A stretch of DNA of 41,578 nucleotides, taken from positions 1 through 41,578 of the forward strand of contig CANQYD010000015.1 of NCBI GenBank assembly GCA_947627985.1, written 5' to 3'. Origin of the DNA: an uncultured Clostridia bacterium. GTDB lineage: Bacteria > Bacillota > Clostridia > Oscillospirales > Ruminococcaceae. The notes beneath the pieces are model-generated. The model was given only the letters and a program-made list of their open reading frames with translations. It ran no database searches and was not told where the DNA came from. A program made the translations under genes and the position numbers. This document shows positions 434-41,263 of the stretch, in pieces (positions within the stretch are counted from its first letter, which is position 1; every line of letters begins with the position of its first letter).

Positions 434-533
434 TCTGATATCTGACATCTGACTTCTGTCCTCTTGATGTGGTCGCTTCGACCACATCTTCAGAATTCGG
501 AAATCGGATATCGGATTGTCAGAAGTTCAAGGC
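434..533. repeat. Mini-element: heptamer arrays in inverted orientation around a hairpin
   Basis: TCTG/TCTT heptamers begin at 434, 441, 448, 455 and 462, exactly 7 nt apart. They are followed by a hairpin with GTGGTCG and CGACCAC arms, and then by five heptamers of the complementary type (CAGA and CGGA starts, also 7 nt apart) ending in a CAGAAG near 525. The outer edges TTGAAATTCTGA and TCAGAAGTTCAA are partly inverted copies. This is the simplest example in the window of the heptamer-bounded palindrome units found at larger size elsewhere. Confidence 0.65.
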
Positions 534-576
534 GTTGCCTGCGGCAACATTTTATAAACAGGCGGGGCGAAGACCG

Positions 577-951
577 TTAAATCATTCTGCCGTCTTTTAC
601 GCGTACCGCTATCTGCCACCCGTCCTCGTAGATGATTGTGCCGACGAAGTTTGTGCAGATTATATCATACGGCTGATCATATTTTTCGAGCAGGCGGAGC
701 ATCGGTTCAGCTTTTTCGATCATTTCGGAGGCGGTCGTCTTGAAAAAGGTAATGACCTGTTCCTGATTTTTGCAGGGTTCGGGCTCCGGGAGGTTTTCGA
801 CGAACCATTTATCGATCGCCCTGAACCGTTCGGCGTCCTCCTCGCTCATCTTGCCGTCGAGCAGAAGGCGCCAGCACATGCCGAAGACGCCTTTGGGATA
901 TTTTGTCATGTAGGCGTTCTCACGCCCTTGAATGCGGATGTATTTTTGCAT
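577..951 (-). CDS. Conserved hypothetical protein, 124 aa
   Basis: The start ATG is preceded by AGGAGG four bases upstream, so translation is well supported. The protein is soluble and acidic, with no signal peptide or membrane segment. It begins MQKYIRIQGRENAYMTKYPK and contains a FGMCWRLLLDGKM motif and a C-terminal GTIIYEDGWQIAVR strand. I recall similar small proteins of unknown function in Firmicutes but cannot name a domain. It stands alone between the IS-rich left end and a repeat island; its upstream region carries two copies of a 30-bp palindrome (see 1018-1160). A function cannot be assigned. Confidence 0.75.
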   Translation of the reverse strand: MQKYIRIQGRENAYMTKYPKGVFGMCWRLLLDGKMSEEDAERFRAIDKWFVENLPEPEPCKNQEQVITFFKTTASEMIEKAEPMLRLLEKYDQPYDIICTNFVGTIIYEDGWQIAVRVKDGRMI

Positions 952-1017
952 GAGGTCCTCCTATTTTTTGAAAAAATGTTGATGTGTGGGGGATTGTGGG
1001 GGCGGAAAAATGATGGT

Positions 1018-1160
1018 GCATTAAAGCGTAGAACTTTAGTATGGCGAGGTGCGTGATTTGGGGTTAAAGCCTTGTTGCTGTGCGGGGGTATGCGGGGGAT
1101 TTGGGCGGGGGCAGAAGAATATGGCGGCGAGTTGAAGTGTAGAACTTTAGTGCGGAGGGG
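1018..1160. repeat. Two copies of the AAAGT-loop-ACTTT palindrome
   Basis: Copies at about 1018-1050 and 1128-1160 each contain AAAG, a short loop including GTAGA, and ACTTTAG. They are close relatives of the six-copy cluster at 27213-27785, here in the opposite orientation when their flanks (CGCCNCCAT-like) are compared. They lie upstream of the 577-951 gene, in a region otherwise rich in G-runs (TGGGGGATTGTGGGGGCGG). Another degenerate copy lies near 21286. Confidence 0.65.
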
Positions 1161-1189
1161 TATATATAGCTTGGGTTTATTTTCTATCT

Positions 1190-1850
1190 TGCTGCTATGT
1201 GGGGACAACCCTTGCAGGGTTTTCCCCAAACCCCTTTCCGATGTGGGGCACCCCTGCGGGGTTCCCCACACCTCTCCGGCTCTTGCCCCCACCCCCGGAC
1301 CCCCTCCCCCTTTTAGGGGGAGGGGGCTCTGCTTGACTATAAGTCTGCGCATGGGTTGGCGGGGTGGGGGTCTGCTTTGAATAGCATATCAAATTTTCGC
1401 TCCTGCGGGAATTTGATATACCTTTTGACCAAGGGAGTGGCGGGTATGGGGTTCTATTCATATTATCATGGGGTTCCTTTGTTTACCTTGTTATGAGGCA
1501 CAAAGCACTTTTTCAATTTGCGCTGCTGTTTTGCCTCGCTTCGCTCGGCTCCGGGCGACTTCGTCGCCGGTTTTCGTTGGGGACAACCCTTGCAGGGTTT
1601 TCCCCAACCCCCTTTCCGGCTGTGGGGCACCATTGCATGGTTCCCCACGCCCCTCCGGCTTCGGGCGACTTCGTCGCCCTCTTTGAAGGCAATAAGCCGC
1701 AAGATTATGCCCTGTCGGTCATAATCTTGCGGTGGGGGATTTCGCGCTCTGCGGAGCGCGACCAAGGGCTCCGCCCTTGGAACCCGCAAGCCCTTTAAAA
1801 AGGGCTTGACCCTAAACTTGTCTTATCTCTCTTAAGGTCGGGCTCAGAAT
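1190..1850. repeat. Palindromic mosaic island I
   Basis: No credible gene. The region is a chain of hairpin modules: a GGGGACAACCC... stem at about 1200-1230; a GTGGGGCACC/GGTTCCCCAC stem at 1240-1270; a CCCTCCCCCTTTTAGGGGGA stem near 1306-1330; a long AT-rich module at 1380-1530 (CATATCAAATT/AATTTGATATAC arms, then ATGAGGCACAAAGC); the CGCTTCGCTCGG and GCGACTTCGTCGCC hairpins near 1539-1570; a second copy of the first two stems at 1580-1650; CAAGGGCTCCGCCCTTG near 1763; and AAGCCCTTTAAAAAGGGCTT at 1789-1808. The same modules recur in islands II, IV, V, VI and VII. Confidence 0.8.
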
Positions 1851-1856
1851 CCCCCA

Positions 1857-3095
1857 TCATTCCTCCGCCCTGCTCAGCAGCTTCTTCATCTCCTCCGTCG
1901 CAGCTTTGCCCATGACGTCGTAGCCGTTGGAGTTGGGGTGCAAGCCGTCGCCGGAGTCGTAGATCGTCTGGAGCGTGTTCTCTTTCTCGGGGTAACACGT
2001 TACGCCGGCAAAATCAACATAGCCGTCAAACACGCTGTCGGGGCTCATGATCCACTTATTGACCGTCGTCCTGATCTTCTCATGCAGCTCCGAATACCAA
2101 GTCTCGTTGTTCCCGAAAGGCGTGATAGTGCCGCCGTAAACCGCGATCCCGCGCTCGTGACATGCCTTGATCATCGTCTTGTAGGCGTCGATAAATTCCT
2201 CCGAAGTGTCATATTGCGCGCCGGGGATATCATTCGTCCCGAGTAAAATTATGACATGATGTACGCCGGGAATATTCAGAACATCCCTCTCAAAGCGCTC
2301 AAGACCGGTTTTCCCCCAGCCGCCCGACATCAGCGCGCCCCCGGCAATCGCCGAATTCACAACCGAAACATGCTGAGTAGCGGGGTCGGATTGAAGCGCC
2401 GTGCTGAGGTTATCGACCCAGGAATTGAAGCCGTTGAAGGTCGAGCATGCGCCGTCGGTGATGGAATCGCCGAAGCAGACCAGCGTCTCGGTGCCCGCCG
2501 ACGCCCATGTGTCGGCTCGGCAAAGCCCGAAGTAGCTCCACATCAGCTCCATTGAGGAGTAGGTTTGGTCGGATACATGATCTCCCTCGACCACCCACGA
2601 CGTGCAGTCAGCCTCGCGGTGGCAGGTCGGCATGGTCGGGACCGAGCCGAATTTTGTCGTGACGGCAAGAAAATCGAGATTGCCGAAGGAAATATCCGTC
2701 TCGTCGGATGTCACCGTCTCGCCCGCGGGAATCGTCACGCTCTCGCTTCCCCCGAAAGTCACGGCGGTGTCGGTCGCGACGTCGATCCCGGGACTTCCCG
2801 GCGATATCAGCTTCGCGATATGTACCTTTTCGATGACGAGCGGCGAGCCCGACTCCTCGTTTGAGAAGGTCAGGCGGATTTTGTCTCCGCCGATCGACGT
2901 CCGAAACTGCTGGCGGCAGGTATTGCCGTCAAGCGACGGCGTTTTCGGGACGACGTCCGGCTCGGAATCGAGCGTCGCCGCAGCCCATGTGCAGTACCAG
3001 CCGTCCTCCGGTTTGATGGTTTTTCTGCGACCGCAGCCGACGGCATTGAGGCAAAGCGCGGCGCACAGAGCGGTGATGAATATTTTTCTTTTCAT
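1857..3095 (-). CDS. SGNH/GDSL-family esterase lipoprotein
   Basis: A 412-residue secreted hydrolase, probably acting on acyl or acetyl esters of glycans or lipids outside the cell. Residues 1-20 form a signal peptide ending in AVGC, so Cys21 is the likely lipid-modified residue of a lipoprotein. After an N-terminal beta-rich region (about 30-195), the SGNH catalytic domain shows block I CFGDSITDGA (nucleophile Ser211), block III LLGTNDIPGA (Asn288) and block V GDGLHPNSNGY (Asp383, His386). The start ATG follows GGGAGGG. It is monocistronic, with repeat islands on both sides. The exact substrate cannot be told from sequence. Confidence 0.85.
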   Translation of the reverse strand: MKRKIFITALCAALCLNAVGCGRRKTIKPEDGWYCTWAAATLDSEPDVVPKTPSLDGNTCRQQFRTSIGGDKIRLTFSNEESGSPLVIEKVHIAKLISPGSPGIDVATDTAVTFGGSESVTIPAGETVTSDETDISFGNLDFLAVTTKFGSVPTMPTCHREADCTSWVVEGDHVSDQTYSSMELMWSYFGLCRADTWASAGTETLVCFGDSITDGACSTFNGFNSWVDNLSTALQSDPATQHVSVVNSAIAGGALMSGGWGKTGLERFERDVLNIPGVHHVIILLGTNDIPGAQYDTSEEFIDAYKTMIKACHERGIAVYGGTITPFGNNETWYSELHEKIRTTVNKWIMSPDSVFDGYVDFAGVTCYPEKENTLQTIYDSGDGLHPNSNGYDVMGKAATEEMKKLLSRAEE

Positions 3096-3159
3096 AGTCA
3101 GCCCTCCCGGGTGGGTGTAGTTGATAATATTTTAGCATGTTTTGGGGGGATAGTCAAGT

Positions 3160-4255
3160 AGAGGGGGGGATTTGAGAAGTCGGAGGACAGAGGCGGGGAA
3201 CGGAGCTGATGCTTCTATGGGGGTTGAGGGGTAGAGGGTAGAGGCTGTACTAAACTTGCAATTGAGACAAGTCGAAAGTTTTCGATCGAGCCTTTTTCAA
3301 AAGGCTCGCGTGGTTCCATTACATGCCGGTTTTGTTACTGCTCGCACTTCGCAATCAAAAACGTGAGATTGCTCGTGCTTGCAGACAAAACCCCGCATGT
3401 AAGGCGGAGCTCTTGGTCGCTCACCTCAGTGAGCGAAATCCCTTTTACCGCAAGATTATGACCGACAGGGCATAATCTTGCGGTTTTTTGCCTTCAAAGA
3501 GGGCGACGAAGTCGCCCGGAGCCGAGCGAAGCGAGGCTCGAATGCCCCTCCCCGCCGGGGAGGGGTTGGGGGAGGGGGAAACGGGAGGGGCGTGGGGAAC
3601 CCCGCAGGGGTGCACCACAGCTCGGAAAAGGGTTGTCCCCCATATTTGCCGAGCGAAGCGAGGCAAAACAGCAGTGCAGCCGTAAAAAGTGCTTTGTACC
3701 TCATAACAAGGGAAATAAAGAGTCCATGATAGTATGAATAGAGTCCCATGCCCGCCGCTCCCTTGGTCAAAAGGTATATCAAATTCCCGCAGGGGCGGAA
3801 ATTTGATATGCTATTTTAAGTAAACCCCCACCCCCGCCGAAGTCTGCTCAGACTTATAATAAAGATAAGCCCCTCCCCCTAAAAGGGGGAGGGGCTGGAG
3901 TGGGGGTGGGTAAAATTTGCAGGGAGTATGCTGCTTCTATCATGGGCTTGAGCTATATGTAAGGCTTGGCACAGAGCTGGGTGCCGCTACGGAGGCTTGG
4001 GAGGGGCAGAAGGGAGGGCGAAGCCCGTGCGACGAAGTCGCACCGCCGACGCGAAGCGTCGGCGTGCTGCCTGCGGCAGCGGGGCTTCGCCCGGTGCACC
4101 CTCCGGCTGCACAGAGGATAGAAATCAGAAGTCAGAGGTCGGATTTTTATCTTTTCCCTCCTACTCCTATCAAGGGTGCGGTAGGGCACCAAGCCCGGTA
4201 CCAAGGTCTCAGCTCCTATCCGGCTTGATAGGAGGCACCCAGCCCCCTTCCTCGC
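3160..4255. repeat. Palindromic mosaic island II
   Basis: No credible gene. At the left, heptamers starting GAGA/CGGA/CAGA at 3174, 3181, 3188 and TAGA at 3232, 3239 read as TCTN on the minus strand. Next come a GAGCCTTTTTCAAAAGGCTC hairpin (3288-3310), a long imperfect GGTTTTGT-type hairpin (3325-3395) with GCAATC/GATTGC inner stems, CTTGGTCGCTCACC, the GCGACGAAGTCGC and GAGCGAAGCGAG hairpins (3500-3535), a run of GC-rich stems to 3650, and the long AT-rich module in reverse (3650-3830). A CCCCTCCCCC/GGGGGAGGGG stem lies at 3871-3893 and the cloverleaf-like element at 4016-4092. Heptamers at 4112, 4119, 4126, 4133 and 4140 follow. Confidence 0.8.
4016..4092. repeat. Cloverleaf-like nested palindrome, copy 1 (77 nt)
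   Basis: The outer arms GGGCGAAGCCC and GGGCTTCGCCC are reverse complements and enclose three consecutive hairpins: GTGCGAC/GTCGCAC with a GAA loop, CGCCGACGC/GCGTCGGCG with a GAA loop, and GCTGCC/GGCAGC with a TGC loop. Each outer arm can also fold on itself (GGGC-GAA-GCCC). Near-identical copies at 41264-41340 and 41505-41578 differ from it only in loops and a junction base. Confidence 0.75.
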
Positions 4256-4259
4256 GCCC

Positions 4260-5612: not shown

Positions 5613-5633
5613 TTTATCACCCCTTTTAGGTGT

Positions 5634-5990
5634 TAGAAATCAGATGGTTAGAGGGTAGAAGCTTGGCACAAGGCTTCTGCTCCTCCCGAAGCTCGGCGAG
5701 GTATGCAAGCCTTGCGGCAGGGCTGGGTGCTGCTATCGGGGGTGGGCTGGGGAGAAGGGTACAGGGGCGAAGCCCCCCGACGCCGAAGGCGTCGGGCTCC
5801 GTCCCTTCGGGACGGAGCGGTCGCGCGCTCGCGCGCGACCGGGCTTCGCCCGATCCTCCCGCCCCTATCAAGGTCGGTAGACATACGCAAGCCCCGTACA
5901 CGGTCCCCCTCCTACGCCACACCCCGACAGAAGCATGAAGTATCCTCTCTCCCTCTGCCTTCCGACATCTGCCATCTGCCTTCTATGCGA
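5634..5990. repeat. Palindromic mosaic island III, bounded by outward-facing heptamer arrays
   Basis: The left edge has TAGA/CAGA heptamers at 5634, 5641, 5649 and 5656 (TCTA/TCTG on the minus strand); the right edge has TCTC/TCTG/TCCG/TCTA heptamers at about 5946, 5954, 5961, 5968, 5975 and 5982. Between them lie two matching AAGCTTGGCACAAGGCTT-like segments and the cloverleaf-like element at 5764-5851. With both edges intact and inverted, this 350-bp unit looks like one complete element between mnmE and khpB. A G+C-rich hairpin at about 5994-6018 lies just after the khpB stop but lacks a clear U-run. Confidence 0.75.
5764..5851. repeat. Cloverleaf-like nested palindrome, variant with three different arms
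   Basis: The outer arms GGGGCGAAGCCCC and GGGCTTCGCCC are those of the 77-nt element, but the three enclosed hairpins are entirely different in sequence: CCCGACGCC/GGCGTCGGG with a GAA loop, CTCCGTCCC/GGGACGGAG with a TTC loop, and CGGTCGCGCG/CGCGCGACCG with a CT loop. Architecture is therefore kept while arm sequence is replaced. Confidence 0.7.
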
Positions 5991-6023
5991 ATCCCCCCGC
6001 CTTTATCGGGCAGGGGGTCATGC

Positions 6024-6824
6024 TCAGAACTCGATCTTGGAATAGAGCCCGGTGGAGCCCATCTCGTCCTCGGGCTTGGGCTTTTTGTAGTCCCTTTCAA
6101 ATGTTGAGGATATGTCAAGGCTCCTCGCTTTGAAGTCCTCTCTGCGGCGACCGCCTTTGCGACCTTTACCACCTTTGAAATTGCCGTCGCGCTTGCGGAA
6201 CTGCCTGTCGGGATCGGTGGAGGTGATCAGCACCTTGCGGTAAGGCTCCTCACCAACCGAGCGCGACGTCGCATTCTCGATCTGAGAAACGGCGGCATGG
6301 ATTATCCTTCTCTCATAGGGATTCATCGGCTCAAGGGCGACGGTCCTGCCGGTCCTCTTTGCCTTCGCGACCATCTTTGCGGCGAGCTCTTCGAGCTGGA
6401 CCTTTCTCTTGTCGCGGAATCCGCAGCAATCGGTCGCGATGCGGTAATAATTTCTGTCGTTGCGGTTGGCGACCAGCGACGCCAAATACTGAAGCGCGTC
6501 CAGCGTTTCTCCGCGTCTGCCGATGATACCTTCAACTCCCTCGCCCTTGATCTCAAGAAGGGAGCCTCCCTCGATCTCGGAAATCTCTATCTCGGGGGTC
6601 TTGAAGCCCATCGACTCCATGACCGTGACGATGTAGTCGGCGGCGAGCTCCGGTTTGGATTTTTCATACTCCGCCTCTACCTTCGCCTCTCCTCTCATTC
6701 CGAAGAGCGTCTTTTTGGGCTCTTCCAAAATGTTGAACGCGATCTTCTCAGCCTCTACACCGAACTGCTTTACCGCAAGCTCCTTAGCCTCTTCGACCGT
6801 CTTTGCGACAAATACTTCTTTCAT
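6024..6824 (-). CDS. khpB: RNA-binding protein KhpB (Jag), Jag-N/KH/R3H domains
   Basis: KhpB, with partner KhpA, is a cytoplasmic RNA chaperone affecting cell elongation and envelope genes in Firmicutes. The 266 residues show a Jag-N domain at 1-50 (FVAKTVEEAKELAVKQFGV), a KH domain with its GxxG loop in EGIIGRRGETLDALQYL (about 98-114), and an R3H domain with the Arg-x3-His core in NPYERRIIHAAVS (Arg172, His176). The C-terminal 60 residues are an unusually basic, glycine-rich tail (GNFKGGKGRKGGRRRED), likely disordered and RNA-binding. The ATG follows AAGGAGG. It lies 55 bp downstream of yidC, probably in the same transcript. Confidence 0.93.
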   Translation of the reverse strand: MKEVFVAKTVEEAKELAVKQFGVEAEKIAFNILEEPKKTLFGMRGEAKVEAEYEKSKPELAADYIVTVMESMGFKTPEIEISEIEGGSLLEIKGEGVEGIIGRRGETLDALQYLASLVANRNDRNYYRIATDCCGFRDKRKVQLEELAAKMVAKAKRTGRTVALEPMNPYERRIIHAAVSQIENATSRSVGEEPYRKVLITSTDPDRQFRKRDGNFKGGKGRKGGRRREDFKARSLDISSTFERDYKKPKPEDEMGSTGLYSKIEF

Positions 6825-8824: not shown

Positions 8825-8837
8825 GATTAGCTCCAAT

Positions 8838-9570
8838 CAGATGTCAGAGTTGAGAGGTCAGAGGACAGATTGTTGACAGAGTGCGTAAGAGACAAGATAA
8901 AAAGTTCGCCAGCCTTTCAAGGCTGCGGGGGTCTTGGGGGCGGCGCCCCCAAGTCGCTCGTCGCAACGAGCGAAATCCCAAGCAAGAGGACGGCGGAGCC
9001 GTCGTCTTGCTTTTAATCTTTCAAAGAGCGCAGGAAGGGGACATGAAAACAGTCCTGTGGACTGTTTTCATCGGGGGAACCCTCGCCGGGGGTTCCCCCA
9101 ACCAAAAACCGGCGACGAAGTCGCCTGGAGCCGAGCGAAGCGAGGCGCGGAGCCCCCTTCCCCTTCAGGGGGAGGGGGTTGGGGGTGAGGGGAAGCCCCT
9201 CCCCACCGGGGAGGGGCTTGGGGTGGGGGAAAAGCCGGAGGGGTGTGGGGAACCCTGCAAGGGTGCCCCACATTAGGAAAGGGGGAAGCAGAAGCTGGTT
9301 TTGTTCCTGCTCAACTTCCCTCGGCGTAAACGCCCGCCTCGGTTGTTTCGCAGACAAAACCCCGCGTCTGCGGGAAAACCCCGCAGGGGTTGTCCCCACA
9401 CGGATTTGCCGCGCGAAGCAAGGCAAAACAGCACCACGCACTCAAAAACCCGCTCTGTCCCCAAAAGCCCTCAAAAACACCCCGCAGCCTATATCTCCCG
9501 CCAAGCATTCCAAGAAGCAGAAGCCGAAAGCTGACTTTCTATCCTCTATCCCTCTACTCTCTATCCTCTA
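8838..9570. repeat. Palindromic mosaic island IV, separating rnpA from rpmH
   Basis: Bounded by outward-facing heptamers: CAGA/GAGA starts at 8838, 8845, 8852, 8859 and 8866 on the left, TCTA starts at 9538, 9545, 9553, 9560 and 9567 on the right. Inside, in order: AGCCTTTCAAGGCT, GGGGGCGGCGCCCCC, GACGGCGGAGCCGTC, GAAAACAGTCC/GGACTGTTTTC (9046-9070), GGGGGAACCC/GGGTTCCCCC (about 9074-9100), GGCGACGAAGTCGCC (about 9109-9123), GAGCGAAGCGAG, several CCCTCCCC/GGGGAGGGG stems (9150-9220), the GTGGGGAACC/GGTGCCCCAC stem, a GGTTTTGT/ACAAAACC hairpin (9297-9361) holding the 34-nt covarying module at 9312-9345, and GGGAAAACCCCGCAGGGGTTGTCCCC. No real gene. Confidence 0.8.
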
Positions 9571-9600
9571 AAAAGAATGACCACCGCACAAGATGGTCAT
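9571..9600 (-). terminator. Probable intrinsic terminator of rpmH
   Basis: On the minus strand, ATGACCA and TGGTCAT form a stem followed by TCTTTTT. A second, stronger hairpin lies immediately before it (9626-9653). Together they would end rpmH transcription before the repeat island, uncoupling rnpA from rpmH. Confidence 0.6.
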
Positions 9601-11572: not shown

Positions 11573-11574
11573 CG

Positions 11575-12150
11575 GGAGAGGGTTTTTAGGGCTTCGCTCA
11601 TCAAACCTTAAGGGGGAGACCCCTTTGAAAAGGGTTCTCCCCCTGTGACCCCCACTCCTAAAGTTGGAGGCAAGCTTCTGCTACTTTCTTTCCTTGGTCG
11701 GTAAACCATTTGGGACAACCCCTGCGGGGTTTTCCCCAAACCCTTTTCCGAGCTGTGGGGCACCACTGCGTGGTTCCCCACACCCCTCCGGCTTTCCCCC
11801 ACCCAAACCCCTCCCCGAGGGGAGGGGCTTATGAGCCTCGCTTCGCTCGGCTCCGGGCGACTTCGTCGCCGGTTTTTGGTTGGGGGAACCCCCGGCGAGG
11901 GTTCCCCCGATGAAAACAGTCCACCGGACTGTTTTCATTCCCCCTCCTGCGCTTATGAACGAGTGAAGCAAGACGACGGCTCCGCCGTCCTCTTGCTTGT
12001 GGATTTCGCCCGTTGCGACGGGCGACTTGGGGGCTCTGCCCCCAAGACCCCCGCAGCCTTGAAAGGCTGGCGAACTTTTTGACTTGTCTCTTAAATGCTC
12101 TTGTGCAGAATCTGACATCTGATCTCTCTTTTCTGCCTTCTGCTCTGCTT
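11575..12150. repeat. Palindromic mosaic island V, between dnaA and oriC
   Basis: Modules in order: GGGGGAGA/TCTCCCCC stem (11612-11643); AAAGTTGGAGGCAAGCTTCTG; GGGACAACCCCTGCGGGG stem; GTGGGGCACC/GGTTCCCCAC stem (about 11755-11781); CCCCTCCCC/GGGGAGGGG; CGCTTCGCTCGG and GGCGACTTCGTCGCC hairpins (about 11835-11872); GGGGGAACCC/GGGTTCCCCC (about 11880-11909); GAAAACAGTCC/GGACTGTTTTC (about 11912-11938); GACGGCTCCGCCGTC; GGGGGCTCTGCCCCC; AGCCTTGAAAGGCT. It ends with heptamers TCTG/TCTG/TCTC/TCTG/TCTG at 12111, 12118, 12125, 12132 and 12139, exactly in phase. No gene. Confidence 0.8.
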
Positions 12151-14965: not shown

Positions 14966-14984
14966 GGGGACAAAGTGAGGATTT

Positions 14985-15745
14985 TTGGGGCTTAATGCTG
15001 TTTTGCCTTGCGAAGCAAGGCAAAGATGAGGGGGAAACCCCTTTAGAAAAGGGTTTTCCCCCTGTGACCCTCTTTTCCTAAAGTTGGAGGCGGGCTTCTG
15101 CTGCTATCTTTACTTTGGGCGGTAAACCGTGTGGGGACAACCCCTGCGGGGTTTTCCCGCAGACGCGGGGTTTTGTCTGCGAGACAACCGAGGCAATCGT
15201 TGTTGCCGAGGGCAGTTGGGCAGGAACAAAACCAGCTTCTGCTTTCCCATTTCCGGGCTTTCCCTCACCCCCAACCCCCTCTCCCAAGGGAGAGGGGGCT
15301 CCGCGCCTCGCTTCGCTCGGCTCTGTGGGGCACCGTTGCACGGTTCCCCACACCCCTCCGGCTTCGGGCGACTTCGTCGACGGTTTTTTGTTGGGGGAAC
15401 CCCCGGCGAGGGTTCCCCCGATGAAAACAGTCCACCGGACTGTTTTCGTTCGCATACGCGGGGTTTTGTCTGCAAGCACGAGCAATCTCACGTTTTTGAT
15501 TGCGAAGTGCGAGCAGCAACAAAACCAGCTTATGCTACTTCCTGCGCTCATTACGATAAAAAGCAAGACGACGGCTCCGCTGTCCTCTTGCGGGGATTTC
15601 GCCCGTTGCGACGGGCGACTCGGGGACGCTGTCCCCGAGACCCCTGCAAGCCCTTTAAAAAGGGCTTGATCCTAAACTCGCCTTTTCTCTCACCGGGCTT
15701 AATCAATATCTAACCTCTACCCTCTAACATTCTATCTTCTAAAAG
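14985..15745. repeat. Palindromic mosaic island VI, between recF and remB
   Basis: Order: TTGCCTTGCGAAGCAAGGCAA (about 15003-15023); GGGGGAAA/TTTTCCCCC stem (15030-15062), terminator-like; AAAGTTGGAGGCGGGCTTCTG; GTGGGGACAACCCCTGCGGGG; a GGGGTTTTGT-type hairpin (15167-15232) enclosing the 34-nt covarying module at 15185-15218; CCCTCTCCC/GGGAGAGGG; CGCTTCGCTCGG; GTGGGGCACC/GGTTCCCCAC; GGCGACTTCGTCGAC; GGGGGAACCC/GGGTTCCCCC; GAAAACAGTCC/GGACTGTTTTC; a second long GGTTTTGT hairpin (15462-15527); GACGGCTCCGCTGTC; GGGGACGCTGTCCCC; AAGCCCTTTAAAAAGGGCTT. Heptamers TCTA at 15709, 15716, 15723, 15731 and 15738 run into the remB leader. No gene. Confidence 0.8.
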
Positions 15746-21254: not shown

Positions 21255-22100
21255 GGAATGAGTACATTGAATGATGATGGGCGGCCGCATTAAAGTTCTG
21301 AAATTTAGCGGGACGGGGCGATGATTTTCCACCTGCCGCACTCTCCGGTAAAAGGTATGTCAAATATCCGATTAAAAGAAAACCCGTCCTGCCCGACCCT
21401 TTGCCAAAAGGTATATCAAATTCCCGCAGGTGCGGAAATTTGATATGCTGTTTAAAGCAGACCCCCACCCCCGGAGAAGCTTGTGCGGACTTATAGCAAA
21501 GATAAGCCCCCTCCCCCTAATAGGGGGAGGGGGTTCCTCTCTCTTACGAGTCCGCACAAAAGTAAACCGGGGGAGGGGGTCTATTTTAAACAGCATGAGT
21601 TCATTTTCCGGCGGGAAAATGAACGAATACCTTTTAACCAAGGGCGCGGCGGGCAGGGGAGTGCAATTCATATTATCAAGGGCTCCTTTATTTCCCTTGC
21701 TATGAGGTACAAAGCGCTTTTTAAGGCTGAGCTGCTGTTTTGCCTTGCTTCGCTCGGCAAACCCAAGGGGAGAACCCTTTTATAAAAAGGGTTCTCCCCT
21801 TAAACCCCTCTCCTAAAACTTTCCCCCTCCCCAACCCCTCCCCGGCGGGGAGGGGCTTTTCGAGCCTCGCTTCGCTCGGCTCCAGGCGACTTCGTCGCCC
21901 TCTTTTGAACGATAAAGGCAAAAAGGACAGCTCTCGCTGTCCTTTTTGCAAGGATTTCGCTCACTGCGGTGAGCGACCAAGGGCTCCGCCCTTGGAACCC
22001 GCGAGCCTTTTGAAAAAGGCTCGATCGAAAACTTTTGACTTGTCTCTCCCAAGCCCGGAGTACAGCCTCTGCCCTCTGACCTCTCAATTCTGCCTTCTGC
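21255..22100. repeat. Palindromic mosaic island VII, between the gyrA terminator and a convergent gene
   Basis: Starts with a degenerate AAAGT palindrome near 21286. It then holds the AT-rich module twice: CCTTTTGCCAAAAGGTATATCA... with AATTCCCGCAGGTGCGGAAATTT (about 21420-21445), and CATTTTCC GGCGG GAAAATG (about 21602-21620). Then follow a CCCTCCCCC/GGGGGAGGGGG stem (about 21510-21533), CGGACTTATAG/CGAGTCCGCAC segments, ATGAGGTACAAAGC (about 21702), the CGCTTCGCTCGG hairpin and a perfect 17-bp stem at 21765-21801. After it come CCCCTCCCCGGCGGGGAGGGG, GGCGACTTCGTCGCC, AAGGACAGCTCTCGCTGTCCTT, CAAGGGCTCCGCCCTTG, and GAGCCTTTTGAAAAAGGCTC. Ends with heptamers at 22068, 22075, 22082, 22089 and 22096. 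No gene. Confidence 0.8.
21765..21801. repeat. Perfect 17-bp inverted repeat, terminator-like module
   Basis: AAGGGGAGAACCCTTTT and its exact complement flank a 3-nt ATA centre. Related but not identical stems lie just after dnaA (11612-11643) and recF (15030-15062). The stem strength suggests a transcription stop in either direction, but no U-run follows beyond the TT of the arm. Confidence 0.6.
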
Positions 22101-22711
22101 TATGCATGCCCTACGATCAGCTTCCTGAACCTCGACGCGATCTGGATCGCCTGCCGGGTCTTGGCAATATGCTGCAAATACGGGTCCTCACCCCAGCTCG
22201 GATTGTCGAGAATATCCACAGCCCTGCCTTCGGTGTAGGGGTACTCGCTCAGCGCAAGCTCCATCTCCCGAATATTCGCCTTTTTCGGCATCGTTATCCC
22301 CGCGGTCCTCATGACCTCGTGGGCAAACTCGGCGCAGGTAAAGGCGTTTTTACGGTCAAATTTCTTGCCGAAGGGGTACGCGGCAGCCGAGAAATAATTG
22401 TAGACATACTCGTCTCCGCAGTCCTTCATCTTGGAAATAAATTCCTTAACATGTTGATAGCTGACGTCGGGCAGGGGAATCCTGACGATCTTCATGCCGG
22501 TCTTTGAGGACAGGGTATATCGGCAGGGCGATTCGGTCACAAAACCCCCTATCAGCGGGTTTGAGCGGTAGACCCGGGAGAAGGAATAGAACTTCCCGAG
22601 GTCCTCTTTTAAGCAGATCGAGCAGTGATTATAGCGGTTTTTAGTGACGATCCGGATCATCTTGCCGATCCGAAGATCGGTCGCCGAAAATATCATAAAT
22701 ATGTACTTCAT
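22100..22711 (-). CDS. Papain-like (NlpC/P60-related, permuted) hydrolase-like protein
   Basis: A 203-residue soluble protein, start MKYIFMIFSATDLRIGKMIR. A His in TKNRYNHCSICLKE precedes a Cys in AFTCAEFAHEVMRTAGI. This order, His first and Cys later, with the pattern sensed from related clostridial proteins, fits the circularly permuted papain-like (YiiX-type) group. Whether it is enzymatically active, and on what, is unknown. Its start overlaps the end of the DUF1015 gene by four bases (ATGA), so the two are translationally coupled. No signal peptide is evident. Confidence 0.65.
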   Translation of the reverse strand: MKYIFMIFSATDLRIGKMIRIVTKNRYNHCSICLKEDLGKFYSFSRVYRSNPLIGGFVTESPCRYTLSSKTGMKIVRIPLPDVSYQHVKEFISKMKDCGDEYVYNYFSAAAYPFGKKFDRKNAFTCAEFAHEVMRTAGITMPKKANIREMELALSEYPYTEGRAVDILDNPSWGEDPYLQHIAKTRQAIQIASRFRKLIVGHA

Positions 22712-24026: not shown

Positions 24027-24059
24027 TCTGACCTCTGACAATCTGTTTTCTGTCCTCTG
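24027..24059 (+). repeat. Heptamer array in the gap between secA and the DUF1015 gene
   Basis: TCTG occurs at 24027, 24034, 24042, 24049 and 24056, phased at 7 or 8 nt. No palindromic island accompanies this copy; it stands alone in the 141-bp gap between two minus-strand genes. Confidence 0.7.
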
Positions 24060-24075
24060 AATTTATGATTTTAAA

Positions 24076-27124: not shown

Positions 27125-27166
27125 AGATGATAGAGGGTAGAAGGTGGGAAAATAGAAGGTAGAAGC
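27124..27166 (-). repeat. Heptamer array after the tRNA-Pro terminator
   Basis: TAGA at 27124, 27131, 27138, 27153 and 27160 (TCTA on the minus strand), mostly 7 nt apart with one missing unit. It borders the palindrome cluster that follows. Confidence 0.6.
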
Positions 27167-27212: not shown

Positions 27213-27785
27213 CAAAGTGTAGAAATTTAAATCGGCGTCCAAATTAAAATCAGGAACACTTCTGAATGAGAGCGGGGGCTCCATCTAAAAAAGTTTGCAG
27301 GAGAGAGAAAATCTTTTAAGAAAATGTCTCACGCTAAAGTGTAGAACTTTAATGCGGCGCCCATGCTTTGGAAAGAGCTCTTCAATAGGGGGATAATAAT
27401 TCTCGAATTATTTAAAATATCGTGCACTAAAGTGTAGAACTTTAATGCGACGTTTTTATATAATAGGTGTTTGCTACATATTAAAAGGAGAGATGAGAGC
27501 GCTCATTTTTTAAGTCGGCAGGGGAACGGGAAAAATTACGTCGAAAAGATACTGCCGCACTAAAGTGTAGAACTTTAGTATGGCATCCTTGCTTCCAGAC
27601 AGAGAAGAAAAAAGAAGTCAGGAATCCGTTGTCCCTGATAATGTCGCATTAAAGTTTAGAACTTTAAATCGGCACCCATACTTTTTTCGAGATTTATTTA
27701 ATAATAGGGGGAGAGAGATACATAATCCCACTACTCCAAAAACTCGGCGCGTTAAAGTGTAGAACTTCACCACGCCACCCCCATT
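27213..27785 (+). repeat. Cluster of six palindromic repeats with unit spacing of about 90-130 bp
   Basis: Copies begin at 27213, 27332, 27424, 27557, 27645 and 27747. The consensus is a GCAYTAAAGT arm, a GTAGA loop and an ACTTTAATGC arm, followed by GGCRCCCAT. The copy at 27557 has CTAAAGT/ACTTTAG, the one at 27424 has CTAAAGT/ACTTTAA, and the one at 27645 has ATTAAAGT/ACTTTAAA. Three interspersed segments share an ATAGGGGGA or ACGGGGGGGA box about 40-60 bases after the palindrome, so the longer unit may be an eroded tandem repeat. Irregular spacing and non-identical copies argue against CRISPR. No credible gene lies in 27125-27832. Confidence 0.75.
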
Positions 27786-33289: not shown

Positions 33290-33291
33290 TT

Positions 33292-33618: not shown

Positions 33619-33619
33619 G

Positions 33620-34915: not shown

Positions 34916-34944
34916 AACAAATCCCTCCGCTCATTTTAAAATAG

Positions 34945-35716: not shown

Positions 35717-35745
35717 AACTTTACCCCTCAGCTAAGTACAGCGGT

Positions 35746-36240: not shown

Positions 36241-36340
36241 GGTATCCATTCCTTTCGTTCTTTTTGAGACTCCTTACTCGGGAGGTCTCGGTGTCTGCAC
36301 AATAATCCGAAATAAACTTAACAATTATACATACAATAGA

Positions 36341-36369
36341 AGTATAGCACATTCAAGATGAAAAGTAAA
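36341..36369 (-). promoter_or_regulatory. Promoter of the hydrogenase operon
   Basis: On the minus strand, TTTACT (36364-36369), a 17-nt spacer and TATACT (36341-36346). The leader is about 95 nt. TTGTTAA lies just after the predicted start (36318-36324); it matches one half of a clostridial Rex operator, but the second half is poor (see rejected items). Between this promoter and the XRE promoter (36370-36560) I see only an AAAAATCC/GGATTTTT stem at about 36382-36410, a weak candidate for a bidirectional terminator. Confidence 0.6.
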
Positions 36370-36566
36370 GCCTAAAATCCAAAAAATCCGCAGGAAAACG
36401 GAGGATTTTTATTTCCCGGGGGATTAAAATTTCGTCGGCTAAAGCGGATTCGGTATATAGCGTCTCATGTGGGACGGTTATTATTTATCGATATCTACAA
36501 AACGAGCCGGTTTGACGTATTTTCGCTAAAATGTCCAAAAAAATTCCTGAAAGTTTATCTAATCTG

Positions 36567-36599
36567 CGATTTTACAATTTGTAAAATCGGGTGTATAAT
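36567..36599 (+). promoter_or_regulatory. Promoter and palindromic operator of the XRE regulator
   Basis: A perfect 23-bp palindrome (36567-36589) has arms CGATTTTACAA and TTGTAAAATCG around one T. It covers the -35 element TTTACA (36571-36576) and most of the 17-nt spacer before TATAAT (36594-36599). This placement is typical of repression by the regulator encoded just downstream. Confidence 0.75.
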
Positions 36600-36655
36600 A
36601 ATCATTATGTATTCACCTTTTTGGGTAAACCATGGACAAGCCGGAGGGAAAAGAC

Positions 36656-37369: not shown

Positions 37370-37387
37370 AAAATTTTGAAAAAGGGC

Positions 37388-37416
37388 TTGACAAACCGCC
37401 CCGTCGGTGATATAAT
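37388..37416 (+). promoter_or_regulatory. Sigma-A promoter of the tRNA-Leu transcript
   Basis: TTGACA (37388-37393), a 17-nt spacer and TATAAT (37411-37416). The predicted start at about 37423 coincides with the first base of the leader hairpin. Confidence 0.9.
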
Positions 37417-37422
37417 GATAAA

Positions 37423-37520
37423 GCTCGATAAAACGAGCAACCCCTTTAAAGACATTCCGAGCCACCCCATCCCCTCGGGTGTCTATAGATAACTAAGGAC
37501 CCCCCATCCCTCCTTAGTTA
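37423..37520 (+). ncRNA. Structured leader upstream of tRNA-Leu
   Basis: About 100 nt lie between the promoter and the mature tRNA. Three hairpins fill it: GCTCG/CGAGC (37423-37438), AGACA..CCGAG/CTCGG..TGTCT (37450-37484) with a C-rich loop CCACCCCATCCC, and TAACTAAGGA/TCCTTAGTTA (37490-37520), a perfect 10-bp stem whose loop CCCCCCATCCC repeats the same motif. It does not resemble a T-box. A small RNA released by tRNA 5' processing, with C-rich loops able to pair with ribosome binding sites, is one possibility. Confidence 0.5.
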
Positions 37521-37526
37521 TCGCCT

Positions 37527-37610
37527 GCGGCAGTGCTGGAATAGGCAGACAGGCACGTTTGAGGGGCGTGTGTCATAGACGTATGGGTTCAAGTCCCATT
37601 TGCCGCACCA
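37527..37610 (+). tRNA. tRNA-Leu (anticodon GAG)
   Basis: An 84-nt type II tRNA. Acceptor GCGGCAG pairs with TTGCCGC (one G-U), with encoded ACCA. The D arm region is CTGGAATAGGCAGACAGG. The anticodon stem CACGT/GCGTG encloses TTGAGGG, giving GAG for CTC/CTT leucine codons. A variable arm TGTCATAGACGTA precedes the T arm TGGGTTCAAGTCCCA. Confidence 0.93.
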
Positions 37611-37652
37611 AATAAAAAAAGGAGTCCGCAGGGCTCTTTTTTTATTTGGTGC
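37605..37652. terminator. Terminator hairpin including an inverted copy of the tRNA 3' end
   Basis: GAGTCC/GGGCTC with a GCA loop is followed by TTTTTTT. The stem extends outwards through A7/T7 to GCACCAAATA and TATTTGGTGC, so it takes in the last bases of the tRNA (GCACCA) and pairs them with an inverted copy after the T-run. Confidence 0.75.
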
Positions 37653-37659
37653 GCCAGAT

Positions 37660-37731
37660 GCGATTATTTCTCCGCAAGACGACCGAGGCGGGCGTTTCCG
37701 CCGAGGGAAGTCGAGCGGCAAGAAATAACGC
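37660..37731. repeat. Nested palindrome containing the 34-nt covarying module
   Basis: The outer arms GCGATTATTTCT and AGAAATAACGC (one bulged base) enclose the 34-nt module at 37680-37713, whose own stems are CGAC/GTCG and GGCGG/CCGCC. In islands IV and VI the same module lies inside a different outer stem (GGTTTTGT/ACAAAACC). Confidence 0.65.
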
Positions 37732-37748
37732 TTCTGATTCCGGCTTTA

Positions 37749-37776
37749 CCCCACAAAATCCACGGATTTTGCGGGG
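37749..37776. repeat. Hairpin downstream of the tRNA-Leu unit
   Basis: CCCCACAAAATCC pairs with GGATTTTGCGGGG around two bases, with one mismatch. It lies between the nested palindrome and a terminator; role unknown. Confidence 0.5.
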
Positions 37777-37783
37777 ACCCCTG

Positions 37784-37806
37784 AATCCGCGAAAGCGGAT
37801 TTTTTA
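37784..37806 (+). terminator. Rho-independent terminator before the nucleotidyltransferase gene
   Basis: AATCCGC and GCGGATT pair around a GAAA tetraloop, followed by TTTTA. It ends only 31 bases before the next start codon, so it might instead regulate that gene. Confidence 0.7.
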
Positions 37807-37837
37807 TTGCTGATTTATGACAAAAGAGGCGCTTAAA

Positions 37838-38485
37838 ATGAACAATCTGATTAAGCAATCAAACGAATTATTAAAGCAGGGAGGCTTTGAATACGCCTAT
37901 TGCGGCGGGCAGGCGATAGATATGTTCTTGGGATATGAAAGCCGCGTCCACGGAGATATCGACATCTGCGCTTATTGGAATGAGCGGGACGAGATTATCC
38001 GCTTCATGCAGTCCCGCGGGTTCTTGGTCTATGAAATGCTCGGGGGAGGAAGAGCTCACCGAATTTCGGACATATCGAAGCAGATAAGGGAAAAGCGGAA
38101 CATCTTCTGCTTTAAAGATGGCTGCCCGCTTGTAAAACTCTATCCCCACGATGAAAACGACTGCTGTTTGATTGAGTTTTTCCACGTCGGACAGACGGAG
38201 TTTGATTTTATCGAATTCCTTTTCAATGACAGGTCGGAAACCTGTTTTGAATATGCCCGCGACAGGGAGATAAAGCTTGAAATCGAAAAAGCCGTGCTTT
38301 ATGCCGACGGCGTGCCCTATCTTGCTCCGGAACTTTCCCTTCTGTACAAGTCGACCGATACGGAACGGGAAGGGTATCGGCAGGACTTTGAACTTGCATA
38401 CGGCAAGATGACCGAGGATCGGCGCTCATGGCTTCAAAGCGCGCTGAAAAGGCTTTATCCGCAGGGACATGTCTGGATAAGATGA
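37838..38485 (+). CDS. Nucleotidyltransferase-fold protein (aminoglycoside/lincosamide ANT-like)
   Basis: A 215-residue protein with the nucleotidyltransferase active-site pattern YCGGQAIDMFLGYESRVHGD followed by IDICAY, in which Asp49/Asp51-type acidic residues bind metal, and a second acidic strand in the FEYARDREIKLEIEKA region. The fold is that of the lincosamide (LinA-like) and ANT(2'')-like nucleotidyltransferases, but many family members do not confer resistance, so the substrate is open. I use ATG 37838, with AGAGG eight bases upstream; an earlier in-frame ATG at 37817 has none. It stands alone between two terminators. Confidence 0.75.
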   Translation: MNNLIKQSNELLKQGGFEYAYCGGQAIDMFLGYESRVHGDIDICAYWNERDEIIRFMQSRGFLVYEMLGGGRAHRISDISKQIREKRNIFCFKDGCPLVKLYPHDENDCCLIEFFHVGQTEFDFIEFLFNDRSETCFEYARDREIKLEIEKAVLYADGVPYLAPELSLLYKSTDTEREGYRQDFELAYGKMTEDRRSWLQSALKRLYPQGHVWIR

Positions 38486-38534
38486 AAGCTCCGGACAGGT
38501 CGCATAAACCTTCCTTTTATTTAAAAAATACCGG

Positions 38535-38564
38535 CTCCGGCAGAAAATGCCGGGGCATTTTTTA
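38535..38564 (+). terminator. Terminator after the nucleotidyltransferase gene
   Basis: CCGGCA and TGCCGG pair around GAAAA, followed by GGCATTTTTT. Confidence 0.75.
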
Positions 38565-38582
38565 TATCCCTCAAATTTTATG

Positions 38583-38612
38583 TTGCAAAATTCCCCCCGA
38601 ATGTGCTATACT
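38583..38612 (+). promoter_or_regulatory. Promoter of polA
   Basis: TTGCAA (38583-38588), an 18-nt spacer and TATACT (38607-38612), giving a leader of about 28 nt to the polA start. Confidence 0.65.
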
Positions 38613-38645
38613 GTAAATAAACAATCCCCGAAAGGAGTTTTATCT

Positions 38646-41177
38646 ATGCGCGTGCTGATCGTTGACGGCAACTCCATACTCAACCGTGCCTTCTACGGGA
38701 TCAAGGTCCTGACTTCGTCAAAAGGCTTCCCGACAAACGCCGTCACCGGGTTCATGAATATCCTTCTGCGCGAGGCTGAGACCTTAAAGCCGGACGGTTT
38801 GGCTGTGGCGTTCGACCTCCCGGAAAAGACTTTTCGCCATTTAAAGTGCGACTACTACAAGGCAAACCGCCACGGAATGCCGGACGAGCTCGCGGTGCAG
38901 CTCCCGAAGGTCAAGGAGATTCTGCGGGGGCTCGGGATAAATATAATCGAGATTCCGGGATATGAGGCTGACGACGTCTTGGGGTCGGTCTCGGCGCTCT
39001 TTTCGGGTCCCGACGACGAGGCATTTATTCTCTCGGGGGATAGGGATACTTTCCAGCTCGTGACGGATCGCACGACCGTGCGGTTCTCCTCGATGAGAGA
39101 AGTCGCCAATGTCGACCGCGATAAATTTTTTGAGGATTACGGGGTGGAGCCGGCTCGCCTTGTCGATATCAAGGCGCTGATGGGGGATTCCTCCGACAAT
39201 ATCCCGGGGGTCCCGGGTATCGGTGAAAAGACCGCAAAAGCGCTCATTAAAGACTACGGCTCCCTCGACGGGGTTTATGAAAGCCTTGAGACGGCTCCTC
39301 TCACGCCGGGGGTAAAGAATAAGCTCCTGAGCGGCAAGGATTCGGCATATGAATCGAAGTGGCTGGCGACCATCGTAAAGGACGCGCCGGTGCCTCGGGA
39401 TAAAGACGCATACAGAGTGGGCGAGCCCGATGAAAACGCGGTTTCCGAGATTTTGACCGAGCTTGAATGCTTCAAACTTTTGGATAGATTGGGGCTGAAA
39501 AAATCAGCAGGGCAGCCCAAAATATCCCAAGAAAAAAGGGAGAGAAAGGCGCTTTCGCTGCATGAACTTTCGGAAGCCGATATCAAAAAAATCAGCGAAA
39601 AGAGAAGCTGGTTCATCTACTCGGGCGGCAGGCTCACCCTGACCGACGGCGAGGCTGCATATTCGTCGGAGGACGGGGATTTGATCCTCAAATATCTGAC
39701 CTCTCCCGGCTCCAAGACGGCTTTTTCCGGCAAGGCTGCATATAAGCTCTGCTTTGAGACCGGCGATGAACTTACGGGGCTCGACTTTATCTGCGACCTT
39801 GCGGGCTATCTGCTGAATTCGCAGGCTGCCGATTATACCGTAAGTAATCTATGCGGAGTATATTCCGTAATGTATAACGAAAATTCCGACTGCGGAGACG
39901 TCGAGGCTCTGCCGGAGCTGGCTGACGTCCTAAAAAAAGGCATTGAAGATCTGAAGATGGATTCTCTTCTTTATGACATCGAACAGCCGCTCTGCGAGGT
40001 CTTGGCTTCGATGGAGGTCTTGGGGGTGAAGGTGGATTCCGACGGGATAAGATCATTCGGGGAAGGCTTGAAAGCCGACATTCACGAGCTCGAGGAGAAG
40101 ATATATCTTCAAGCCGGTCATGAATTCAACATCAGCTCTCCGAAGCAGCTCGGGGAAGTGCTCTTTGACGAACTCGGGCTTAAAAAGGGCAAGAAAAATC
40201 ACCGGGGATATTCAACCGGCGCCGAGGTCCTTGAGGAGCTGGTGCCGATCCACCCGATAGCCCAGGATATCTTGGATTACCGCACCCTCACAAAGCTTTT
40301 ATCGACCTATGTCGACGGGCTTCTTGCCGAGGTCTGTCCCGACGGAAGGGTCAGATCGGAATTCAAGCAGACCGAGACCCGCACGGGAAGAATATCTTCA
40401 TCTAATCCGAATATGCAGAATATCCCGGTCAGAAAAGAGCTCGGGAGGAATATGCGGAAATTCTTCGTCGCGGAAGATGGGAGAGTGCTCCTTGACGCCG
40501 ACTACAGTCAGATCGAACTCAGAGTCCTTGCCTCGATGAGCGGCGACGAGAACATGAAAGAGGCGTTTTTATCCGGCGCCGATATCCATACAAGAACCGC
40601 GGCGCAGGTCTTCGGATTGCCGGAGGAATTTGTGGACCCGAACATGAGGCGTGCTGCGAAGGCGGTAAACTTCGGCATCATCTACGGGATCGGGGCGTTC
40701 AGCTTATCTAAAGACATCAACTGCTCGGTCGCCGAGGCGGACAGATATATCAAAAACTATCTCGGAACATATCCCGAGATCGACAGGTTCATGAAGGAGA
40801 CGGTGGAAAACGCCGAGCGGGACGGCTATGTCACGACGCTCTTCGGGAGGAGAAGGTATCTTCCCGAGCTCAAGGCGTCAAACCGCAACCTCAAGGCTTT
40901 CGGGAAGCGCGCCGCGATGAACGCGCCTATTCAAGGGACCGCCGCCGACATCATCAAGATCGCGATGATTAGGGTCTACAGGCGCTTGCGGGAGGAAAAA
41001 CTGGACGCGAGGCTGATCTTGCAGGTGCATGACGAGCTGATCGTCGAGGCGGCGGAGGGGTGCCGCGAGCAGGCTGCGAAGGTGCTTTCCGAGGAGATGG
41101 AGCGGGCTGTGAGCATGGCGGTGCCGCTGACGGCTGAGGTCGGGGTGGGGAAGAGCTGGTATGAGGCGAAGAACTGA
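38646..41177 (+). CDS. polA: DNA polymerase I
   Basis: Fills gaps and removes RNA primers during lagging-strand synthesis and repair. The start is ATG 38646 (MRVLIVDGNSILNRAFYGIK), with AAAGGAG ten bases upstream; the open frame before it is not coding. The 843 residues comprise a 5' nuclease domain (EIPGYEADDVLGSVSAL, LSGDRDTFQLV, GDSSDNIPGVPGIGEKTA), a 3'-5' exonuclease-like domain, and the polymerase domain with motif A DADYSQIELR (Asp617), the O helix RRAAKAVNFGIIYG and motif C QVHDELIVEA (about 792-801). In the middle domain I see no proofreading DxE motif, as in many Gram-positive enzymes. Confidence 0.97.
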   Translation: MRVLIVDGNSILNRAFYGIKVLTSSKGFPTNAVTGFMNILLREAETLKPDGLAVAFDLPEKTFRHLKCDYYKANRHGMPDELAVQLPKVKEILRGLGINIIEIPGYEADDVLGSVSALFSGPDDEAFILSGDRDTFQLVTDRTTVRFSSMREVANVDRDKFFEDYGVEPARLVDIKALMGDSSDNIPGVPGIGEKTAKALIKDYGSLDGVYESLETAPLTPGVKNKLLSGKDSAYESKWLATIVKDAPVPRDKDAYRVGEPDENAVSEILTELECFKLLDRLGLKKSAGQPKISQEKRERKALSLHELSEADIKKISEKRSWFIYSGGRLTLTDGEAAYSSEDGDLILKYLTSPGSKTAFSGKAAYKLCFETGDELTGLDFICDLAGYLLNSQAADYTVSNLCGVYSVMYNENSDCGDVEALPELADVLKKGIEDLKMDSLLYDIEQPLCEVLASMEVLGVKVDSDGIRSFGEGLKADIHELEEKIYLQAGHEFNISSPKQLGEVLFDELGLKKGKKNHRGYSTGAEVLEELVPIHPIAQDILDYRTLTKLLSTYVDGLLAEVCPDGRVRSEFKQTETRTGRISSSNPNMQNIPVRKELGRNMRKFFVAEDGRVLLDADYSQIELRVLASMSGDENMKEAFLSGADIHTRTAAQVFGLPEEFVDPNMRRAAKAVNFGIIYGIGAFSLSKDINCSVAEADRYIKNYLGTYPEIDRFMKETVENAERDGYVTTLFGRRRYLPELKASNRNLKAFGKRAAMNAPIQGTAADIIKIAMIRVYRRLREEKLDARLILQVHDELIVEAAEGCREQAAKVLSEEMERAVSMAVPLTAEVGVGKSWYEAKN

Positions 41178-41263
41178 TAGTAGTCAGAGATTAGGGGGGT
41201 AGAAGGCTGGGAGGAGACTTTCTGCTTCTGAGCAGAGGGTTGGTGCAAGGTGCGGGTGAGGGA

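Follow-up and report, generated by a model that had tools for sequence, protein, structure and literature searches.

The question raised by this stretch of DNA is what the short phased arrays at the edges of its repeat islands are, how they reached these positions and what reads them. The stretch, called the window below, is contig CANQYD010000015.1 (contig 15, 41,578 nt, forward strand) from an uncultured Clostridia bacterium of the Ruminococcaceae, whose genome (assembly GCA_947627985.1) comprises 2.16 Mb in 72 contigs. The window carries mnmE, rnpA, rpmH, dnaA, dnaN, recF, gyrB, gyrA, secA and polA, several of these names being presumed, in part from gene order. By DnaA, the nearest named loci belong to uncultured Clostridia whose isolate names start with Lapin, presumably from rabbit gut, with Ruminococcus and Oscillospiraceae further off. 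Each array is a run of units beginning with TCTR (R, purine), which are followed by three more variable bases (N3) and recur every 7 nt. The explanation favoured here, with a probability a little below even, takes the arrays as a module of about 32 nt, read by its phase, carried by small non-autonomous mobile repeats and dispersed with their insertions. A preliminary description, made from the letters of the window, had reported the arrays at the edges of islands; its observation is partly confirmed and its interpretation partly supported.

Phased arrays and their unit structure

The score of an array is the number of letters matched out of 20 over five TCTR units spaced 7 nt apart, one step of 8 nt being allowed. 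The window holds 3 arrays at 20/20, 10 at 19 or more, 11 at 18 or more and 12 at 17 or more, against means of 0.0, 0.0, 0.0 and 0.1 in 30 dinucleotide-preserving shuffles in 200-nt blocks; 14 reach 16 or more, a level at which ten cruder block shuffles give 1.2. The reversed motif, used as a control, gave 3 hits in the window at 17 or more and 8 at 16 or more, and real arrays are overlapped by 3/3 and 7/8 of these. Genome-wide, counting four strict units with overlapping hits included (strand + strand), there are 132+80 matches against 0+3 for the reversed motif, 212 against 3 in all, so that 7-nt phasing in excess of chance is established. Anatomy and edges were studied in 841,578 sampled bases, 39% of the genome, where arrays and reversed-motif hits number 138 vs 35 at 17 or more, 128 vs 7 at 18 or more, 97 vs 3 at 19 or more and 51 vs 1 at 20/20; the 128 arrays at 18/20 or better are those described below. 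The earlier figure of at least 15 sites is approached only if weak arrays are counted, and the five examples called perfect (434, 4112, 8838, 12111 and 22068) each fall one letter short (19/20). The 20/20 arrays of the window start at 9538, 15709 and 24027, and each includes a single 8-nt step.

In the sample, 78 arrays fall into three repeat families (A 31, B 32, C 15) and 50 lie outside them (the 'other' group); an alternative assignment rule for A yields 28. Family A forms the right end of hairpin-mosaic islands, B is a unit of about 290 bp that is often tandem, and C is a mini-element. Most arrays have 4-5 units, and the consensus of the module is near TCTGACM-TCTGACT-TCTGACT-TCTGTCC-TCTR (M = A or C). 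The N3 bases had been described as free to differ from array to array. They do vary while TCT and the 7-nt phase are kept, but with a clear bias, being mostly A/T/C (chiefly A), then C/T (chiefly C), then C/T/A, with G rare. Unit likeness for adjacent units, distant units and units of other arrays is 0.494, 0.512 and 0.499 in A and 0.448, 0.434 and 0.472 in B. Because neighbouring units are no more alike than those of other arrays, A and B arrays do not look like tandem duplications; the 'other' group (0.53, 0.474 and 0.425) has a small excess for neighbours. The base R agrees between neighbouring units in 91-93% of cases in A and 'other' (53-56% between arrays) and in 74% vs 62% in B.

A common order of units is a further property of the module in B and C. 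The penultimate N3 is TCC in 19/31 B and 12/14 C arrays, and in 13/59 A and 'other' arrays. Position-matched N3 identity in B is 0.67, 0.56, 0.48 and 0.60 vs 0.44, on which independence of N3 from position was rejected. B and C share a unit order despite unrelated bodies. When B copies were found by body alone (an unbiased set of 21 distinct rows anchored on the downstream GTGCRNCC), TCT columns held 1.52 bits, other array columns 0.99 and columns before the array 1.00; in B arrays picked by their TCTR letters the values (TCT 1.88 bits, N3 0.93, flanks 0.89 and 1.04) are inflated by that selection. The B body is preceded by a full array or by nothing: at 116 intergenic places of GGGCGAAGCC, which belongs to this body, the preceding array scores 18 or more in 30, 15-17 in none and 14 or less in 86.

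Insertion edges, empty sites and a mobile carrier

For the most part, the arrays lie at the outer margins of inserted repeats and point outward. In the sample, 124 of 128 are intergenic, vs an intergenic share of the DNA of 14.6%. Sequence repeated elsewhere is found in the inner 100 nt of 74 of the 128 arrays and in the outer 100 nt of 36. In B and C the array is internal (inner flank repeated in 17/32 and outer in 31/32 for B; 15/15 and 4/15 for C), and once these two families are set aside the inner flank is repeated in 42/81 and the outer in 1/81, compared with 70/248 random intergenic 100-mers. Of 123 scorable arrays, 89 have their TCTR (pyrimidine) strand directed at the nearest gene, 45 facing 3' ends (antisense) and 44 facing 5' ends (sense), and array neighbours within the same gap face outward 13 times, inward once and in the same sense 21 times. 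A stop codon lies within 8 nt of the outer array end in 17 of the 53 arrays facing 3' ends (2.7 expected under uniform placement) and within 8 nt of the inner end in 4/67 (2.8 expected); in 18/57 arrays it is at most 3 nt away. On the 5' side, many arrays stop, as judged by eye, a few nucleotides short of a -35-like box or a ribosome-binding site, and an automated promoter pattern matched 1/71. At rnpA, mnmE and remB, arrays lie 1-18 nt ahead of the called starts and are directed into these genes.

Relatives chosen by DnaA (at least 80 loci, of which 15 served one locus comparison and 13 the junction comparison) provide empty sites. Between recF and remB the window has 794 nt, vs 11-50 nt between the matched genes in 9/11 relatives, with gene order kept; the spacing in relatives L051 and L052 is 670 and 380 nt. 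Three empty relatives read stop codon, two bases and GGCGTGG at this junction, and the window has the array followed by AGCGTGG. Between rnpA and rpmH the window has 854 nt vs 119-207 nt in 13/13 relatives. At the loci compared, no arrays were found at the empty sites of relatives, which indicates that the arrays arrived with the inserts and had not been waiting there. The gene at 22100-22711 encodes a 203-aa protein with an ortholog in 30/31 genus genomes, and among 16 loci of this gene an array directly follows the native stop only in G000 and G020, with the C-terminus intact. That arrays fit flush against genes is partly explained by ancestral spacers that were very short, as between recF and remB. 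The outward arrays reported on both sides of two islands are present at the rnpA-rpmH island (island III, 8834-9573); the dnaA-dnaN island (about 11573-12146) has one on its right side only, and no left array was found there down to 15/20.

The clearest mobile carrier of the module is mini-element C, which runs from GGGAGTGT to a terminal hairpin and has at least 29 matches in this genome. Exact target duplications of 7-9 bp flank 9/20 copies, including the window copy (8-9 bp), by a simple test made without a shuffle control. The alignment of 19 copies, one diverged copy being omitted, places an unpaired array between two hairpins; several of their pairs have changes in both partners, and in a few sequences a pair is broken. 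By eye, the left end resembles the end of an IS1-like element of this genome, whose N-terminal reading frame (window 2-268) matches the InsA zinc ribbon; the right end is a hairpin that does not match the inverted end of this IS1-like parent, and two IS1-like copies examined have no array between their ends. C is a multi-copy short element with target duplications that lacks the match to both IS1-type inverted ends. At one site a copy was placed in a family A hairpin. A single BLAST search with C matched no phage, and one with the dnaA-dnaN island matched no plasmid. The mini-element with inward arrays formerly drawn at 434-533 resolves into two separate things, the 116-bp element with its internal array and a weaker opposite array outside it. 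A different mini-element of 117 bp, with both IS1-like ends (GGGAGTGTCC ... GGACACTCCC type), occupies window 247-363, and a similar copy lies near 92846 of G000 contig C3.

Table 1. Arrays and associated elements in the window
Feature	Position	Strand	Score or remark
TCTR array inside mini-element C	434..465	+	19/20
Mini-element C, 116 bp	373..488	+	left end GGGAGTGT, hairpin 1, array, hairpin 2
C left target duplication	364..372		CTCAGAATT
C right target duplication	489..497		TTCAGAATT
Weaker opposite array past C end	488..523	-	17/20
Family B array (unit about 290 bp)	4108..4143	-	followed by GGGCGAAGCCC hairpins
Array immediately upstream of mnmE start	5624..5659	-	19/20, one 8-nt step
Array facing 3' end of gene 6024-6824 (-), presumably jag by gene order	5954..5989	+	19/20
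rnpA-rpmH island, left outward array	8834..8869	-	flush with rnpA start region
rnpA-rpmH island, right outward array	9538..9573	+	20/20; last TCTA merges into TCTAAAAAGAA tract, versions of which occur in several relatives
dnaA-dnaN island, right array	12111..12146	+	
recF-remB island, right array	15709..15744	+	20/20; immediately 5' of AGCGTGG (GGCGTGG in three empty relatives)
recF-remB island	14966..15744	+	missing from 9/11 relatives compared
Array abutting stop codon of gene 22100-22711 (-)	22068..22103	+	
Array facing secA 3' end	24027..24062	+	20/20; preceded by CCTTGCAAT, close to CCTTGAAAT of family C
Weaker array downstream of tRNA-Pro	27128..27163	-	18/20
Weak array at polA 3' end	41171..41217	-	16/20

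Several other repeats accompany these features. Hairpin-mosaic islands lie approximately at 1200-1832, 3264-3896, 8886-9533, 11577-12090, 14966-15691 and 21371-22047; their hairpins are near-perfect, with stems that vary between copies in a manner that looks compensatory by eye. An imperfect palindrome near TTAAAGTGTAGAACTTTA occurs seven times, in clusters at 1003-1156 and 27316-27776, at intervals of about 90-130 nt inside a cluster. Within 41261-41578, 77 bp of family B type are repeated exactly at the contig end, which is probably why the contig ends at 41578. The region 37817-38485 weakly matches (E 3.7e-5) a nucleotidyltransferase family whose name refers to aminoglycoside resistance.

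Distribution and candidate readers

Presence of the arrays within the genus is patchy. Strict hits number 24 to 619 in 10 genomes, 3 in G003, 6 in G005 and 0 in G011, and they are absent from the other 12 measured. Identity of the 203-aa protein groups the first 13 genomes together, along with G046, in which arrays were not counted. G003, G005 and G011 have matches to the island bodies, and the idea that such bodies are always accompanied by arrays was rejected on this ground. Matches to the dnaA-dnaN island body in other genomes are mostly to one hairpin module. The association of arrays with island edges is supported within this genome; across species, island bodies of the dnaA-dnaN type are not tracked by arrays. 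The main hairpin module of the mosaic islands is present in array-poor sister species too. Between contigs of G000, array density is 4 per 100 kb in C2, 1 per 60 kb in C7, 6 per 100 kb in C1, 2 per 40 kb in C8 and 25 per 100 kb in C3, which perhaps reflects an uneven spread, another replicon or a binning error.

In a class-wide draw of 291 genomes (G000 included), five strict units occur in 18. Outside the genus, array and reversed-motif hits are similar in number in several genomes, G178 (14 vs 11), G284 (33 vs 21) and G230 (15 vs 8) among them, so the 7-nt period is clearer there than the TCTR phase. Seven such genomes, these three among them, yielded 59 arrays, of which 40 of the 48 scorable face the nearest gene, in stretches many of which were chosen for holding hits and with genes taken as long reading frames only. 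Neighbours within 150 nt are outward in 9 cases, inward in 0 and same-sense in 1, and the fillers are lineage-specific (TCTGGYR, TCTGTAC, TCTAACY).

None of the candidates searched emerged as a reader of the arrays. Loading of Rho had been proposed; on this reading, pyrimidine dimers every 7 nt would recruit it to RNA leaving the islands. The outward-reading strand is indeed G-poor and C/T-rich; but the Rho_RNA_bind domain (PF07497) was found in 0/31 genus genomes by a search that was positive in 9/14 control genomes, and the arrays just before rnpA, mnmE and remB point into these genes. This proposal has become scarcely credible. Cold-shock proteins were likewise rejected as heptamer readers, the cold-shock domain being found in 0/31 genomes. 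Binding of the array by a repeated-module protein is possible, in view of the TCT conservation in B copies found by body alone.

Competing explanations and known heptamer systems

Under the explanation of a phase-read module dispersed by mini-elements, the module came with insertions, some of which at least went into very short gaps between genes. A genome-encoded factor would read TCTR on one strand at 7-nt steps, and the elements would need this factor. Recombination between look-alike arrays may then swap bodies and erode leftover native spacer, and such erosion could bring arrays right up to stop codons, -35 boxes and ribosome-binding sites. Array abundance tracks C: over 25 genomes rho is 0.96 for C copies and 0.79 for the island body, and within 13 genomes of one clade it is 0.91 for C vs 0.13 for the dnaA-dnaN island body. 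Several observations weigh against this explanation. The genomes entering that correlation are related to one another, copies of C are counted as minimum numbers with a query that contains the array, and in some genomes hits within C add to the array count. C holds 15/128 of the sampled arrays. Y1_Tnp, IS1595, RVT_1 and IS1 were each rejected as common driver, being unmatched in several array-rich genomes, although the absences of the IS1 transposase are uncertain because IS1 matches are weak. The dnaA-dnaN spacing of 926 nt falls within the 375-1284 nt of relatives, so the comparison gives no sign of an insertion at this locus. A flanking hairpin on either side is found at 16/81 A and 'other' arrays vs 98/510 single control 60-mers; the rule of an array between hairpins, true of C and downstream in B, fails for A and 'other' and was rejected as a general one. 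Array sequence is unrelated to body identity in A and nearly so in B, which in A fits recombination between look-alike arrays.

The place of the array within its carriers bears on the same question. The array is internal in B, C and, by eye, G186, and it occurs on one side only in the dnaA-dnaN and recF-remB islands. Target duplication left no sign in 30 outward pairs from several genomes, where the longest word shared by the outer ends measures 4.87, vs 4.89 in shuffled pairs; this counts against the favoured explanation, and a reading of the arrays as plain terminal repeats is on this account not supported. The notion of a mobile-element end signal thus survives in that insertions bring arrays, which point outward and delimit repeats, and gives way where outward pairs lack target duplications and the array sits inside B and C. 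With no Rho or cold-shock domain found, no fitting transposase and no duplications at outward pairs, a phase-read module with dispersal by mini-elements is favoured. In its widest form, one factor in several unrelated Clostridia might read a degenerate signal of TCT and purine per 7 nt with lineage-specific three-base fillers, as a common mobility or boundary module of unrelated repeat families in which phase is conserved rather than sequence; this extension is tentative, at well under an even chance.

The main rival assigns the arrays a boundary or insulator role, in which another factor, or RNA polymerase itself, would halt transcription leaving an island toward a gene on either strand, and selection would keep arrays at gene edges. 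The pyrimidine strand turned toward the nearest gene inside and outside the genus, the closeness of outer but not inner ends to stop codons and the conservation of TCT all agree with such a role, which is nonetheless unlikely: arrays just ahead of start codons or ribosome-binding sites, some within operons, would silence the gene, and presence is patchy in one genus. Ordinary heptanucleotide repeats made by polymerase slippage and later diverged are a rather improbable source. True tandem copies do exist in some other Clostridia (TCTGTAC, TCTACTT), and slippage over about 7 nt is cited as a source of abundant repeats in one report (PMC4679880); against this, neighbouring units are no more alike in A and B, for all the excess in the 'other' group, and TCT and the 7-nt phase are retained in mostly 4-5 units while N3 varies. 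More doubtful still is a role in regulating how the next gene is transcribed or translated, of the kind proposed for the TAACTGA repeats compared below. Many 5'-side arrays end close to promoter-like or ribosome-binding elements, but antisense facing of 3' ends is about as common as sense facing of 5' ends, and cold-shock-domain proteins, named as one candidate reader of TAACTGA, are those not found in the 31 genomes. Pre-existing arrays into which islands insert are less probable again: C lies inside TCTA arrays in two copies from two other species (G007 L152, G022 L165) and the last TCTA of 9538-9573 overlaps apparently native sequence, yet relatives with empty sites have no arrays there.

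The interest of the system lies in the fact that no mechanism has so far accompanied reports of heptamer repeats in bacteria. Here, sister species of one genus range from 0 to over 600 strict hits, one carrier is mobile and empty sites are clean; the domain searches also remove two obvious readers, so that the identity of the reader of a seven-base phase becomes approachable by comparison and pull-down. Title- and abstract-level literature searches (heptamers with Ruminococcaceae, mobile elements or miniature transposons), with subscription literature largely outside their scope, returned no earlier description of TCTR arrays. Rho utilization sites are likewise pyrimidine-rich and regularly spaced, but no Rho domain was found in this genus. 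IS1 makes target duplications of 8-10 bp; C resembles IS1-family elements in its 7-9 bp duplications and its left end, and differs in having a hairpin as its right end and an array inside. The small dispersed repeats of Nostoc (Elhai and others, 2008) are reportedly minute hairpin elements that carry compensatory changes and lie within tandem heptamers; C is longer than these elements are said to be and leaves target duplications.

The closest likeness is to the TAACTGA direct repeats of marine Beggiatoaceae, Cyanobacteria and Bacteroidetes. In their description (PMC4679880), 147/170 sets are oriented toward start codons, the largest class ends 1 nt before the start codon, and the mechanism of action is not established. 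They share with TCTR arrays the 7-nt phase, a mostly intergenic and patchy occurrence, an orientation toward start codons, ends beside start codons and some overlap with stop codons; re-phased, TAACTGA can read ACTGATA with a CTG core, which is the present author's own reading. TCTR arrays have the 7-nt period, intergenic setting and multiple loci of tandem heptamers, with units that are not copies of each other in A and B; in the 'other' group neighbours show a slight excess of likeness. TAACTGA sets consist of 2-6 copies of one invariant heptamer and lie mostly at 5' ends, whereas TCTR arrays have variable N3 and mostly 4-5 units, occupy both gene edges, bound repeats and occur inside a mini-transposon. 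TCTR arrays are best read as a variant of the known heptamer-repeat systems.

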